Part shown: in pieces, positions 1,666 to 34,961 of the stretch
Layout of the letters: each line of letters opens with the position of its first letter
Position numbering within the stretch: position 1 is the stretch's first letter
Assembly (NCBI RefSeq): GCF_007993035.1
Contig: NZ_VOOS01000001.1
Location: 1-64,000, forward strand
Length of the DNA: 64,000 nucleotides
Origin: Vicingus serpentipes
Lineage (GTDB): Bacteria > Bacteroidota > Bacteroidia > Flavobacteriales_E > Vicingaceae
Reading direction: 5' to 3'
The notes under the pieces: generated by a model
What the model saw: only the letters and a program-made list of their open reading frames with translations
Told to the model about the DNA's origin: nothing
Databases searched by the model: none
Position numbers and translations under genes: made by a program

Positions 1666-4485
1666 CTAATGACTAATAGAAATCTTTTTAAAATCAACTT
1701 TACCACTAACCATTCTAATTTTTAATAAGTAAATACCTGAATTAATATTACCTGTAGAGATTCTATATTGAGAATCCTCTGGATTTAGAAGTTGCTGTTT
1801 TACTAAATTACCCGAAACATCATAAAGCTCTATTTGCTCTATATTTCCTTTTAAATTCAATACATCATTTACTGGGTTAGGGTAAACAGATAGATTATCA
1901 GAAGTATTATCACACTTTGAAGCTATAATATTTGAATAAGAATACTCCCCATTAAAATCGACTTGTTTTAACCTATAATATGAGACTTCATCTGTTTCTT
2001 TTGTATCATCTTCAAATATATAGTTTTGAATCACAGATGAATTTCCTGCACCAGAAATATAAGCTAAAGGTTCAAAATTAAAATCTTGGCCTGCTTTTTC
2101 CACTACAAAATAATCATTATTAATTTCTACTGAAGTTTTCCAATTTAGAATTGAATACATTTTATAGCAGTCTACAGAAAAACTCACAAGCTTAATAGGT
2201 AAAGTACTTATCTCTTCATATGCACCAATAGAAGGTGTAGATGACCTTGGAGTAAAATAAATATCTTCACTCACATTAATAGGGCAACCTGAAGCGAAAC
2301 AAGGAGAACCAGACAATAAATCTAAATCATTAATAGCTGAATTCGAATATTTTGGATCATCTGGACCGCTATTTCCTCCACCAGAATTCTCATCACCATT
2401 ATTAACATTAGAATGATCAACCCCTTTCCAAGCTGTCAATGTTGCATAATTTAAACTTAACTGAGCACACCTAGCTCCATTTGGATAATAATACCAGTTA
2501 CAATCAATTTCTCCGATTTTAGCAGCGCCATCAAATTGAACACAATACTCAGAAGTAGAACTAGCCGTTGTATAAAATATATTATTTTTAATAACCCAAT
2601 TGCTTTGTCCTCCCGAAGTATTATCAAACCAAAGACAATGAGAGGTAGTATAAAATGAATTATATTGAAGTCTACCTATATTACTATTTGGCTTATCATT
2701 ATAAAATCCTACGAATGCGCTAATATAATTATTATATATCTGATTATAATCAGAATCTCCATTTGCTGACCCATCAAAATATAAACCATATCCATTCCCT
2801 GAAATCCTATTTCTAAACACTTTATTGTGATTAGAATAGTAAAAACCTACACCAAAAGCACCTCCTCCACTCATAATAATAATATTATCATAATACTCTC
2901 CAAATTCATTATAAGCTGCTGGCGCTGTAGCCCCATCCAAATCAATACCACCACCTATACCACATTCTATTCGGGAATTATTTATTGTATGAAACAATGA
3001 CCCTGATGGACCACCCCCCATGTCAATTGCACTTTCATTACCTCCTTGTTGATTAATTATCCAGCAATGGGTCAACTGACAATGACTACCTCCATTAAGT
3101 TCAACAGCATCTTCAGCAACACCATTTCCTAAAATTTTAAAATTTTCAAAGCTCACATAATCCACATTCGAAAAAGTTAAAGGTATTCCTCCTGCAGAAT
3201 TAATTATAGTTAAAGATGAATCTACCCCAATGAAGCGAACAGGACATCCCCCAGAACCGTCATCAATAGAAGTAACAACAACATTCTCAGCAAACGTACC
3301 CGCATCAACAAAAATTCTATCTCCTGAAGTTAGTACATAAGAACTAATTATCGCAGAAATTGATGATTTTGGTGAAGCTGGAGTTAAACCAGTGTTTCCA
3401 ACTGCACCAATATTAGTTGTATAAATATCACTACCATTTAAAGTTCCGTCATTTACATAATAATCTGTTCCAGCTCCCACACTCGTTGTTGCGTTCAAAA
3501 TATTGGAAGGAGTATAAGACTCTTTTATTGCTAGAACTTTAAAATAATATTTAGAACACCCAGAAAGCCCAGTAATAGATTTAGAGGTAGAATTTGCTGG
3601 CTCATATGAGAAAAAGTTAGCCGCATCAAGAGGCACTTCTGGTTGTATAGAATAATACACTGCAAACCCTAACTCATCACTACTATTATCTGTCCATGTT
3701 ATATCAATTTGTGACGAACTAATAGTTGTAGCTGAAGTTAAAAAAGGTGCAATACACTTATTTATTGGTGAAAATAAATAACTAGCATCAGTAGTAGATG
3801 ACATGTTAGAAATATCTGCTCCATTTCTATTTGGATCTTCAATAGTTGTGCTAATTGCTTCTGACCCGTTTACAGAAACAAAATTTCCTGAACCTGTTCC
3901 AACAGCAGTAAATCCCATCGATGCAAGAGGATTTGAAGGAGACCATCCTGCAGTCTCTTGACTGTATTGAAATTCTATTTCACCTGTTTCATGTAAAACA
4001 CATCGGAATGAAATTGGTGCTGTTGCTTCAGATTGATCCCATTCCATAGCTTCCCACGTAACCGAATGCTTTCTTTCTCCACTATATCCTCTAGAAGAAT
4101 TTTCGTAGACACCTTCAATACGAGCAGAATTACCATCATCAATTTCAATATTATCCCATAGAGGAGCTAATATTGGTCTACCATTTGGATGATTGGTTAA
4201 ATCATTGACTTTAGTTGTAACTGCTGAAGCACCTAAACTAAAAGTTCCAAAATTGGTGTAATTTGCCTGAGTGTACCTAACTCCCATGTACCAAAAATCA
4301 AATCCTAAGGCTCTTGCTCCACTAGCAGTTGGCACAGCTGGATTAGTTCCATCAGCGTTATCTATATTGGTTCCGTCTTGATGAACAAAATCTAAAGTAA
4401 CAGAATTTGTGAGAGACCAATTAGTCATTACTTGTGACAACATAACAAAAGGAGAAAAACAAAATAAGAATATTAGGGCTTTCAT
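1666..4485 (-). CDS. T9SS-exported beta-helix/FN3 protein
   Basis: The start is taken at ATG 4483-4485 because it gives a clean signal peptide (MKALIFLFCFSPFVMLSQ); a longer frame to 4524 would put 13 extra residues before it. In order: a lectin-like N-terminal region (residues about 20-240), a fibronectin-III-like stretch (about 250-330), a YYVNDGTLNGSDIYTT block, a right-handed beta-helix (about 380-750, many N.Y.N.I and N.F patterns), the Bacteroidota module LVSFSV...LNWKTSVEINNDYF...YYRLKQVDFNG, and a T9SS type-A sorting domain starting LSVYPNPVNDVLNLKG near the C-terminus. The protein is therefore predicted to be exported across the outer membrane by the type IX system and attached to the cell surface or released. 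The substrate is unknown. The 91-bp gap to the next minus-strand gene holds no obvious terminator, so the two may be co-transcribed. Confidence 0.88.
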   Translation of the reverse strand: MKALIFLFCFSPFVMLSQVMTNWSLTNSVTLDFVHQDGTNIDNADGTNPAVPTASGARALGFDFWYMGVRYTQANYTNFGTFSLGASAVTTKVNDLTNHPNGRPILAPLWDNIEIDDGNSARIEGVYENSSRGYSGERKHSVTWEAMEWDQSEATAPISFRCVLHETGEIEFQYSQETAGWSPSNPLASMGFTAVGTGSGNFVSVNGSEAISTTIEDPNRNGADISNMSSTTDASYLFSPINKCIAPFLTSATTISSSQIDITWTDNSSDELGFAVYYSIQPEVPLDAANFFSYEPANSTSKSITGLSGCSKYYFKVLAIKESYTPSNILNATTSVGAGTDYYVNDGTLNGSDIYTTNIGAVGNTGLTPASPKSSISAIISSYVLTSGDRIFVDAGTFAENVVVTSIDDGSGGCPVRFIGVDSSLTIINSAGGIPLTFSNVDYVSFENFKILGNGVAEDAVELNGGSHCQLTHCWIINQQGGNESAIDMGGGPSGSLFHTINNSRIECGIGGGIDLDGATAPAAYNEFGEYYDNIIIMSGGGAFGVGFYYSNHNKVFRNRISGNGYGLYFDGSANGDSDYNQIYNNYISAFVGFYNDKPNSNIGRLQYNSFYTTSHCLWFDNTSGGQSNWVIKNNIFYTTASSTSEYCVQFDGAAKIGEIDCNWYYYPNGARCAQLSLNYATLTAWKGVDHSNVNNGDENSGGGNSGPDDPKYSNSAINDLDLLSGSPCFASGCPINVSEDIYFTPRSSTPSIGAYEEISTLPIKLVSFSVDCYKMYSILNWKTSVEINNDYFVVEKAGQDFNFEPLAYISGAGNSSVIQNYIFEDDTKETDEVSYYRLKQVDFNGEYSYSNIIASKCDNTSDNLSVYPNPVNDVLNLKGNIEQIELYDVSGNLVKQQLLNPEDSQYRISTGNINSGIYLLKIRMVSGKVDFKKISISH

Positions 4486-4587
4486 AATGATTATTTTATA
4501 TAAAATTATACACAAGACAAGCATTTTAACATTGAATTATTTTAATATTTTAAAAAGTCTGAATTATAAATTGTTAATTTTACAAAC

Positions 4588-6042
4588 ATGAAAGCTGAAC
4601 CACTTTTTGACCTTATAAATTCCTTAACTATGTCAGAGAAAAGGTTTTTTAAAATCTTCTCACAACGACATGTTATTGGTGAAACCAACCAATATTTACT
4701 AATGTTTGATTTTATTGATAAAAGTGAATCCATAAGCAACGAAATACTTCTTCAGCAACCTTTCGTAAAAAATTTATCTGCTGAAAAAAACTACCTATAT
4801 CGATTAATCTTGAAAAGCTTAAATGCTTACTATGCTGATTTTAGTACAAAAATGAAAGTGCAAAACTTAATTATAAGTGCTGAAATATTAGCTTACAAAG
4901 GATTAGAATCTCAGGCTTTAAAAACACTTGAAAAAACAGCCAAAATAGCTGAAGAAGCTGAACTTTTTACTCACTTACTTACAGTAAAACAAACTGAATT
5001 TGAAATATTATCTAAAATAAACAACTACGATATTGCTTTAGATAAAATTAAAGAGTTTGAAAACGTTTTAAAAAAACAAGTTGGCTTTACTGCAATTCAA
5101 GAACAAACTACCGAATTATACAAAGTAAGACAAAGCATAGGTTCTATTAGATCTAAAGAGGACATCTCTCAATTAGAAAAAGTTGTTAAACAGAATACTA
5201 AACAAGGCTTGCCTTCAAAAAAATCAAACTTATTTTTAAATAGCTTAAATATAGCTTACTTAAACGCCACAAAAGACTATAAAAAAGAACTTGTCTATTT
5301 AGAAAAGGTTGTCGACCTATATGAATCAAATCAATTCTTAATAGAATATTCAGTAAAAGGATATATTTCAAGTATTTACAATACTGCTAACACTTACCGA
5401 AACTTAAAGAATTATAAAAAAGCTTTATTCTTTATAGATAAATTAGACAATTTAAAAACCAATAAATTAATATCTACTTCAAAATCTATCAGTGCTTATC
5501 TGTTTTACCTATCGAACAATTTAAGGCTATACATTCATATTTTAAATAATGAATTTAAGTTAGCCAATATTGCCTACGAGCGAATAAAAAACGAATACCA
5601 TTTACATTGCGACAACATTAACAAATCAGTGGTTTATGAACACTTGATTTTAATTATTAGAATTAAAATTGAACAAAGCGAATTTAAAAAAGCACTTCAA
5701 TTAAGCAACATAATTATTAACGATACTTCATTTAAAAAAAGAGAAGACATTTTAACCTATGTTCGTTTAATTAATTTGTTAATTCATTTTGAACTGAAAA
5801 ATGACTTTACAATTGAATATTTATCTGCATCTGCCGCGAACTACCTTAAGCGTAAAAAGAGATTATATAAAACTGAAAAAGAAGTAATTAATTTCATCAC
5901 AAAATTTACTTCAGGAAACAAAAAACACTTAGACAAAGTTAACGAGAATCTTAAAATTCTTAAGGACGACCATTATGAAAAAAGCATGTTTAATTTGTTT
6001 GATTTTCAAAAATGGGTTGAAGATAAACTAACTAAATACTAA
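4588..6042 (+). CDS. Helical-repeat (TPR-like) protein of unknown function
   Basis: A 484-residue, Lys/Asn/Leu-rich soluble protein with no signal peptide and no membrane segment. It is almost all predicted helix, with pairs of amphipathic helices of about 35-40 residues (for example QALKTLEKTAKIAEEAELFT and KKALFFIDKLDNLKT), which resembles degenerate TPR arrays. The N-terminus contains LTMSEKRFFKIFSQRH, a motif common to a group of Bacteroidota cytoplasmic TPR proteins. A box TAATTTTA at 4575-4582, one base off the TAnnTTTG promoter element, lies just before the ATG. It is divergent from the T9SS gene on its left and overlaps the convergent gene on its right by 11 bp. A scaffolding or regulatory role is possible, but no specific function can be assigned. 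Confidence 0.75.
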   Translation: MKAEPLFDLINSLTMSEKRFFKIFSQRHVIGETNQYLLMFDFIDKSESISNEILLQQPFVKNLSAEKNYLYRLILKSLNAYYADFSTKMKVQNLIISAEILAYKGLESQALKTLEKTAKIAEEAELFTHLLTVKQTEFEILSKINNYDIALDKIKEFENVLKKQVGFTAIQEQTTELYKVRQSIGSIRSKEDISQLEKVVKQNTKQGLPSKKSNLFLNSLNIAYLNATKDYKKELVYLEKVVDLYESNQFLIEYSVKGYISSIYNTANTYRNLKNYKKALFFIDKLDNLKTNKLISTSKSISAYLFYLSNNLRLYIHILNNEFKLANIAYERIKNEYHLHCDNINKSVVYEHLILIIRIKIEQSEFKKALQLSNIIINDTSFKKREDILTYVRLINLLIHFELKNDFTIEYLSASAANYLKRKKRLYKTEKEVINFITKFTSGNKKHLDKVNENLKILKDDHYEKSMFNLFDFQKWVEDKLTKY

Positions 6043-32197: not shown

Positions 32198-32215
32198 TAA
32201 TAAGTTAGAATAAAT

Positions 32216-32247
32216 AAAAAAAGCCTTAGGAATACCTAAGGCTTTTT
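32216..32247 (+). terminator. Intrinsic terminator after the SBBP protein gene
   Basis: GCCTTAGG and CCTAAGGC form a perfect 8-bp stem with an AATA loop, flanked by an A run and a T run. Confidence 0.92.
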
Positions 32248-32263
32248 TATCTGTTATAATATC

Positions 32264-32297
32264 AAAAAAAAGCTCCATCAATATGATGAAGCTTTTT
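32264..32297 (-). terminator. Hairpin terminator, probably the original tRNA-Asp terminator
   Basis: AGCT-C-CATC and GATG-A-AGCT form a stem with one C-A mismatch and an AATAT loop, between an A run and a T run. Its right arm continues directly into the 25-bp copy of the tRNA-Asp 3' end. Read on the minus strand, it would follow the CCA of tRNA-Asp if the element at 32290-34902 were removed. Confidence 0.75.
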
Positions 32298-32314
32298 GGC
32301 GGTCTGGACGGGAC
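32290..32314. repeat. attachment-site repeat, distal copy (25 bp)
   Basis: A perfect 25-bp copy of 34878-34902, covering the last 18 nt of tRNA-Asp including CCA plus the AAAAAGCT that follows it. The sequence diverges directly on both sides (A/G before, C/T after). It has no complete tRNA attached, as expected for the displaced end of an integrated element. Confidence 0.85.
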
Positions 32315-32484: not shown

Positions 32485-34155
32485 TTAATCTTTAATACAG
32501 CGGATACTATGATGATCATCTTTACCATAATTAAACCTCATAAATTTTGAATTACCATAGTATGCATAATTTGTTAGAGGCATTCCTGTACTTGGATTAA
32601 TTGATGAAGACCAGAAGAATCCATTCTCTCCATCTAAATTAGATGAGGAGGTTAGTCCTCCAGGTAAAGCATTAAATCCAATAGAATTTGTTGCCCCATA
32701 ATTAGGAGGATACCAATGTTGAGTCCCTGTGGATTTTAAAATACCACCAGCGATGTTTGATACAATTCCAGCATTTGTTGGATAAAAATTAGGATCAAGA
32801 TAACCTATTAGAAGATCCCAATCTGATAAACTTGGGACATGCCATCCTGTAGGACAAACATTTCGTGGGTCAGAAACAGTATACCAATTATAATTTTTAC
32901 CATAATAGTCGTAATCTACACTATCATACCAACCATAAGTCCAGTTTCCGATTTGATCACTTGAAAAACCAACGGAATCATAAGGTATTGGATCTCCATT
33001 TGAATAAGTAGTAGTTCTTAAGTTTTCAGCAAACCATTCTTGACCATTTCCTACAACAATTGTAGAATAATTGAATCCGTCAAAAACAACTCCTTGACCT
33101 GCATTTGAAATAGGAATTGTTGTAAATGTTATTTCATTACCATAAGAAACACCAGCATTATTAATTGCATAAGCTCTTGCGTAATATGTTTTATTAACCT
33201 CAAGTGGTTCTATTATTAATTGAAAATTCCCTGTTCCAGTATTAGCGTCTACTATATAATCATTGTAATCTATAGTCGGTTGAGACCATAAACCATAACA
33301 AATTCCTCTACTGATAACTGGAGAACCACCTTCATCTGTAATTTCACCACCTACCTCTGCTAAATAATCCTGAACATTAACTGCTGGGAAAGTATTAATT
33401 GAAGCAGGATTACCTGGAGGTTGTATTAACTTATTAGTTGATTTATATACTTTATATGATCCAGAAATATCTCTAATTTGTAAAGTACTTGGATTTTGAA
33501 CTTGTGTACTGAATTCTCCAGATATTTCCCATTTATATTCATCATAGGTTTCATTTACTATTTCAATATTAGTAAATCTATGAAAATATGGAGCGCAAAT
33601 AGGTGGATTATCTTTAACCATTCCCCAAGAAATTCCCTGATTATCTTTAACACCGTCTAAACACCAAAACATGTCTATATCTGTAGGTTCATAATCTGAA
33701 ACAATTCCATTAATATATGTAGTGTCTTCTGGGCTAATAAAACAATTAATATTTCCTGATGTGTTATTTAGATCCATTGAATTAATATGCCAGGCATCAT
33801 CTGATAATAAAATTTGAAATTCTATTCTATTATTACTCCATTGATAATCAGTGTAATTTAGACCGATTCTAAAGCCACAAGGATATTCAAATGACTGAGA
33901 GTTGTAAGTATTCACTGATGTACCATCATTCCAGGTATAAGTAATCTCATTACAAAAGCTACATGGATCACAACTTCCCCCACAATCAACTCCAGTCTCA
34001 TCCCCATTTTTAATCCCATCAGAACACGTAGCTGTAGTTGAACCACCTCCTGTAGATGTTCCTCCTCCATTTGGTGCAGGTGGATCTGGATCTGGAGAAC
34101 AATTAGTAAAAGATATTGCGCTTAGTAAAGCTAAAAAGTATAGTAGTTTTTTCAT
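32485..34155 (-). CDS. FISUMP-domain lipoprotein (element cargo)
   Basis: A 556-residue protein. MKKLLYFLALLSAISFTNCS is a lipoprotein signal with the lipobox Cys at about residue 20, followed by a Gly/Ser/Pro linker and CSDGIKNGDETGVDCGGSC, a small Cys-rich module frequent in Bacteroidota surface proteins. The middle has an FN3-like region (AYAINNAGVSYGNEITFTT). Residues about 350-556 are a Fibrobacter succinogenes major paralogous domain: EWFAENLRTTTYSNGDPIP, NWYTVSDPRNVCPTGWHVPS, LSDWDLLIGYL, FNALPGG and a C-terminal SIRCIKD. There is no T9SS sorting motif. The domain is of unknown function on the cell surface. The gene lies wholly inside the tRNA-Asp element and is its only complete gene. 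Confidence 0.88.
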   Translation of the reverse strand: MKKLLYFLALLSAISFTNCSPDPDPPAPNGGGTSTGGGSTTATCSDGIKNGDETGVDCGGSCDPCSFCNEITYTWNDGTSVNTYNSQSFEYPCGFRIGLNYTDYQWSNNRIEFQILLSDDAWHINSMDLNNTSGNINCFISPEDTTYINGIVSDYEPTDIDMFWCLDGVKDNQGISWGMVKDNPPICAPYFHRFTNIEIVNETYDEYKWEISGEFSTQVQNPSTLQIRDISGSYKVYKSTNKLIQPPGNPASINTFPAVNVQDYLAEVGGEITDEGGSPVISRGICYGLWSQPTIDYNDYIVDANTGTGNFQLIIEPLEVNKTYYARAYAINNAGVSYGNEITFTTIPISNAGQGVVFDGFNYSTIVVGNGQEWFAENLRTTTYSNGDPIPYDSVGFSSDQIGNWTYGWYDSVDYDYYGKNYNWYTVSDPRNVCPTGWHVPSLSDWDLLIGYLDPNFYPTNAGIVSNIAGGILKSTGTQHWYPPNYGATNSIGFNALPGGLTSSSNLDGENGFFWSSSINPSTGMPLTNYAYYGNSKFMRFNYGKDDHHSIRCIKD

Positions 34156-34281: not shown

Positions 34282-34737
34282 TTAATTGATATGGAGGGGC
34301 TCTATTGATGACAGATTCCACGTGTTAAGGCTAAAACCCAACCAATGGGATGCTCAAAAACAAAAAGCCAAGGGCTCCTCAGAATTGAGTCAAAACATCA
34401 ATGAACTAATTAGCACTCAGCGTTCAAAATGCATATCATCTTTTAATGAGTTGATAAAAAGGGATGTAGCTTTTTCAATTCAGGATTTAGTATTACTTAT
34501 AAAGGGAGAGGAGAAACCTGAAATTGGATGGCTTGAGTTATTTGATAAGCATTTAGAACATATGAAATCAAGGGTTGGAGTAGATTATAGCTCAAGTACT
34601 GTAAGAAGATATATGTCTAGTAGGCTTATACCAGTAGCAATATTTATACGCTGACTGTGGCGTGTAATTCTTAACTTAAGAGCTGCCTCTCCCCTTTTGT
34701 TTAAACGGTGTTTTTCAAGCCAGAAAAGTACTTTCAT
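34282..34737 (-). pseudogene. Tyrosine integrase remnant disrupted by internal inversion
   Basis: On the minus strand, ATG 34735-34737 opens a typical Bacteroidota integrase N-terminus (MKVLFWLEKHRLNKRGEAAL ... RINIATGI) that runs to 34621. The continuation (RLKPNQWDAQKQKAKG ... FDKHLEHMKS ... SSSTVRRYMSS) is instead on the plus strand, 34331-34620. Flipping 34326-34628 joins TGI directly to RLKPNQWD in frame and continues on the minus strand to a TAA at 34282-34284, giving one frame of about 151 codons. This covers the arm-type DNA-binding domain and part of the SAM-like core-binding domain. The catalytic domain (R...HxxR...Y) is not found anywhere in the element. In the present orientation the plus-strand piece opens with a TTG at 34286 and ends at 34654, which is not a real gene. 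Confidence 0.8.
34326..34628. repeat. Inverted repeats TAAGGCTA / TAGGCTTA bounding the flipped segment
   Basis: TAAGGCTA at 34326-34333 and TAGGCTTA at 34621-34628 (reverse complement TAAGCCTA) match at 7 of 8 positions in opposite orientation and sit exactly at the two inversion breakpoints. Both copies are in the same codon phase, so inversion keeps the reading frame. Confidence 0.65.
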
Positions 34738-34850
34738 ATCTGTTGGTTTAATTGATTACAAACTCAACAGTGAAGTATCTGTGTCCCTAAAATGAACCTG
34801 TGACCTTTTAGCCTACCTTTTCTGATAAAAAAGATCACCCTAAAAGACAC

Positions 34851-34885
34851 AAAAAAAGCCCTAAGTACAATACTTAGAGCTTTTT
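34851..34885 (-). terminator. Intrinsic terminator of tRNA-Asp
   Basis: CTAAGTA and TACTTAG form a 7-bp stem with a CAA loop, extended past one C-A mismatch by GC/GC and then A/T runs. On the minus strand it follows the tRNA CCA at once. It lies inside the integrated element, so it was probably brought in by it. Confidence 0.85.
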
Positions 34886-34902
34886 GGCGGTCTGGACGGG
34901 AC
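34878..34902. repeat. attachment-site repeat, tRNA-proximal copy (25 bp)
   Basis: Identical to 32290-32314. It covers the 3' 18 nt of tRNA-Asp and the first arm of its terminator. Confidence 0.85.
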
Positions 34903-34961
34903 TCGAACCCGCGACCCCCTGCGTGACAGGCAGGTATTCTAACCAACTGAACTACCAGACC
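34885..34961 (-). tRNA. tRNA-Asp (GTC), CCA encoded
   Basis: On the minus strand the gene starts GGTCTGGTAGTTCAGTTGG (acceptor arm and D arm), has the anticodon stem-loop CCTGC-CTGTCAC-GCAGG with anticodon GTC, the T arm GCGGG-TTCGAGT-CCCGT and a closing CCAGACC. It is followed by G73 and an encoded CCA at 34885-34887. Acceptor pairing GGTCTGG/CCAGACC is perfect. The 3' end is the integration target of the adjacent element. Confidence 0.98.

Follow-up and report, generated by a model that had tools for sequence, protein, structure and literature searches.

A programmed DNA switch would need both an invertase and repeats that are, in general, longer than the octamers discussed in this work. 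Intragenic DNA inversions, or gene-internal invertons, are reportedly among the subjects of Chanin et al. 2024. The inverted repeats of invertons are 10-40 nt long (PMC11892184). The other systems with which our locus can be compared are the tRNA-targeting elements of Bacteroidota that carry Arm-DNA-bind_5 tyrosine integrases. In this work we have analysed a window of 64,000 nucleotides of Vicingus serpentipes (positions 1 to 64,000 of contig NZ_VOOS01000001.1), in which an integrase fragment is divided between the two strands. The feature is genuinely there in the sequence, and biologically it is nothing unusual: a tRNA-integrated element with a broken integrase. We consider it, with a probability of roughly 0.86, to be the decayed and frozen integrase of an element of about 2.6 kb in tRNA-Asp, left by deletion plus inversion and having no function of its own.

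The split integrase frame

The first 37 codons of the integrase lie on the minus strand (34737-34627), where the translation ends ...RINIATGI, and this frame, MKVLFWLEKHRLNKRGEAALKLRITRHSQRINIATGI, stops at the octamer at 34621-34628. The plus strand carries the continuation RLKPNQWD... (RLKPNQWDAQKQKAKG...), which is read from the octamer at 34326-34333, the segment beginning within TAAGGCTA at 34326, and the inverted stretch (34334-34620, plus strand) carries integrase codons about 38-137. When the sequence between both octamers was flipped in silico, a single open frame of 151 codons was obtained on the minus strand, with its end at 34282, so that both the division between the strands and the restored frame of about 151 codons, as given in the preliminary description, are borne out. 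Against an HMM of 24 full-length integrases the flipped protein scored 106.9 bits, its residues 1-137 aligning with model positions 11-147, and the alignment crosses the left junction without a gap. The flipped frame also matched Pfam PF17293 (Arm-DNA-bind_5) with 56.3 bits (E 5e-15; the cut-off is 22.6 bits), which means that the N-terminal arm-binding domain is present. With an unbroken integrase alignment across the junction, the rearrangement is not a matter of open reading frames coinciding by chance, and the ungapped match to the HMM implies that in the ancestral integrase gene both pieces shared a strand.

Beyond residue 137, at the second breakpoint, no further integrase homology is detected. 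The 14-codon tail of the flipped frame (codons 138-151; 34282-34325, minus strand) scored 18 against a median of 22 for shuffled tails, that is, lower than the shuffles. One alignment had suggested that these codons are catalytic box I, a proposal supported neither by the HMM nor by the shuffle test. Since the homology ends where the second breakpoint lies, the same codon phase that had been reported for both breakpoints is uninformative on that side. Homologs are about 400-420 codons long and the remnant matches them as far as codon ~137; the catalytic two-thirds of the integrase are absent. No PF00589 match was found in the window and, as the element has no C-terminal catalytic domain, it does not encode a functional integrase. 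A search with the integrase HMM of the window's open reading frames of at least 40 aa likewise returned nothing beyond the two remnant pieces. The earlier idea of an inversion inside an integrase gene fits the two N-terminal pieces, the second of which is indeed inverted, but the gene is a truncated one. With its catalytic part absent, flipping yields the arm-binding domain, a portion of the core-binding domain and no recombinase.

The octamers at the breakpoints are TAAGGCTA (34326-34333) and TAGGCTTA (34621-34628), both given on the plus strand, and the reverse complement of the second is TAAGCCTA. They had been described as 8-bp inverted repeats, but the repeat is not perfect: TAAGGCTA and TAAGCCTA are identical at 7/8 positions, the one mismatch falling close to the centre. 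Identity in the flanks, taken as 25 bp per side, is 11/50, which is background, so the repeat does not extend further. A 7/8 match on a fixed diagonal has a chance probability of about 0.003-0.008 among random breakpoint pairs. Octamer pairs which are equally good and spaced 250-350 bp apart number 163 within 2.2 kb, and no enrichment of the motif was seen in the window (9 occurrences, 5.9 expected). Microhomology at the breakpoints is therefore suggestive but short. Once flipped, the 137 integrase codons are free of stops, which suggests that the event is young or, less likely, that the frame has been maintained. An open frame of 137 codons does not tell a fresh accident from a switch.

The tRNA-Asp element and its relatives

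The integration target is tRNA-Asp(gtc), located by ARAGORN at 34885-34961 on the minus strand. A 25-bp exact repeat, AGCTTTTTGGCGGTCTGGACGGGAC, which includes the last 18 nt of tRNA-Asp, occurs in a tRNA-proximal copy (34878-34902) and in a distal copy (32290-32314), and on the evidence of the sequence these form the attL/attR pair of an element of about 2.6 kb integrated in the 3' end of the tRNA gene. The element contains the integrase remnant and one cargo gene (32485-34155, minus strand), whose 556-aa product has a C-terminal Fib_succ_major (FISUMP) domain (Pfam PF09603, 115.7 bits). A terminator-like hairpin ending in AGCTTTTT is found before each att copy (32210-32300 and 34850-34885), which suggests that a replacement terminator for tRNA-Asp arrived with the element.

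A 14-bp att probe had two occurrences in the source genome and a single one in each of three genomes of the same genus (G001-G003), and its backward control gave zero occurrences in the genomes probed. The single att copy and the conserved neighbours on the DUF58 side point to a site without the element in these three genomes. A DUF58 gene follows tRNA-Asp on the 5' side in most relatives checked, and many of them have further window genes beyond it, several in the case of same-genus relatives; the 3' side of tRNA-Asp varies between genomes. In a genome from another genus of the family (G028; locus L110, G028:C155) a partial tRNA-Asp copy near 1500 adjoins integrase homology near 1731-2954, an integrase-length stretch, and this arrangement indicates that tRNA-Asp is a recurrent target for such integrases. 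In another relative (L063, G015:C28) an integrase-like open reading frame of about 580 codons, at 2919-4664, adjoins the 3' side of tRNA-Asp, and extra sequence seems to be placed before its catalytic part.

An apparently intact counterpart of the element is present at tRNA-Val of the same genome (L090, G000:C1:766000-780000). It is about 5 kb long, has 20-bp att repeats (copies starting at 4563 and 9575) and carries an inward-pointing integrase of 402 aa directly inside one att, a small gene which by eye resembles a helix-turn-helix excisionase, and FISUMP-type cargo that is 46% identical in the domain to the cargo of the tRNA-Asp element. The presence of FISUMP cargo in the tRNA-Asp element together with this apparently intact counterpart suggests that FISUMP-domain genes can travel on tRNA-integrated elements in the family. 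We found no paper that links FISUMP genes with integrases. A further integrase, of 416 aa, lies directly downstream of tRNA-Ser. The remnant gave no match in a pairwise search against the three larger integrases of its own genome. The best identity to the integrase fragment was 35% (295 and 395 whole genomes searched), four phage records matched it at 26-33%, and neither the genome contig collection nor the viral contigs contained a relative. About 20 integrase matches in relatives lie in frames shorter than 300 aa (some of them at contig ends), which indicates that broken integrases are common.

Origin of the inverted segment

How did the segment come to lie on the opposite strand? One or two rearrangements would account for the loss of codons 138 to about 410 and for the inversion of the ~290 bp next to them. 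The end of the remnant is also the end of the inversion, and this shared breakpoint suggests a single deletion-inversion. A single event, or two with a common breakpoint, would be the simplest history, and the mechanism was probably microhomology (TAAG/CTA, 3-4 bp) or template switching. Two observations speak against this explanation: the octamer match is above chance, as would also be expected after a site-specific event, and the flipped frame is stop-free over 137 codons. The same open frame could be expected if the segment had been joined in the wrong orientation during assembly, or if two strains had been collapsed, and the genome is a draft of 34 contigs. We nevertheless regard an artefact of this kind as unlikely. 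The genome has one copy of the sequence, assemblers seldom invert 290 bp across 8-bp repeats, and a corrected assembly would still give a truncated integrase; misassembly would leave the verdict of a dead gene unchanged.

Could the segment instead be an active switch, in which a recombinase acting in trans flips it at the octamers, so that a DNA-binding fragment of 151 aa is switched on or off? The 7/8 inverted octamer at the breakpoints and the frame which opens in the flipped state agree with such a system, and six PF00589 tyrosine recombinases encoded elsewhere in the genome (frames of 301-453 aa) could in principle supply the activity, although there is no sign that they do. We nonetheless hold a switch to be highly unlikely. 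The search of the genome for an invertase, which had been proposed earlier, showed no PF00239 serine recombinase in the genome and six tyrosine recombinases that are all outside the window; no invertase adjoins the segment. The 8-bp repeat, with its near-central mismatch and no flanking arms, compares poorly with the 10-40 nt of invertons (PMC11892184), and the lack of octamer enrichment in the window also counts against a switch. The segment was encountered in one orientation only. The fragment was not seen split over two strands in any other genome searched, a second or opposite-orientation copy of the segment was absent from its own genome, the genome contigs and the viral contigs, and a scan of the genome contigs for the junction pattern returned nothing. 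A single 18-base match to the junction pattern in the viral collection was discarded, as it encodes no relative and is at about the chance level for a collection of that size. Scarcely credible is the more specific idea that a genomic tyrosine recombinase acts in trans at TAAGSCTA and toggles a fragment consisting of the arm domain only, although, if true, such a fragment could be a competitor for arm sites and regulate the mobility of integrative elements. The preliminary description had allowed for either a one-time rearrangement or a switch. As far as sequence can tell, the rearrangement is favoured, as a single event in a gene that is dead, since the catalytic domain is lost, the repeat is short and imperfect, the genome has no PF00239 recombinase and no split fragment occurs elsewhere; the switch has gained no positive support.

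Comparison with known systems

The value of the locus lies in the recognition of a small element at tRNA-Asp that pairs FISUMP cargo with a dead integrase; as a switch it deserves little weight. It also shows that a flipped dead gene can mimic a phase switch. As in gene-internal invertons, an inversion has occurred between inverted repeats within a coding region. Unlike in those systems, however, the repeat is too short and imperfect, the gene was already dead, and neither a second orientation nor a cognate invertase was seen in the genome and the collections searched. The tRNA-targeting elements of Bacteroidota with Arm-DNA-bind_5 tyrosine integrases differ from the element at tRNA-Asp in that its integrase breaks off at about codon 137 and is inverted in part, and the element is thus not autonomous. 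With these elements it nevertheless shares the direct-repeat att sites at the 3' end of a tRNA, a cargo gene, and an integrase N-terminus that lies just inside one att and points inward.
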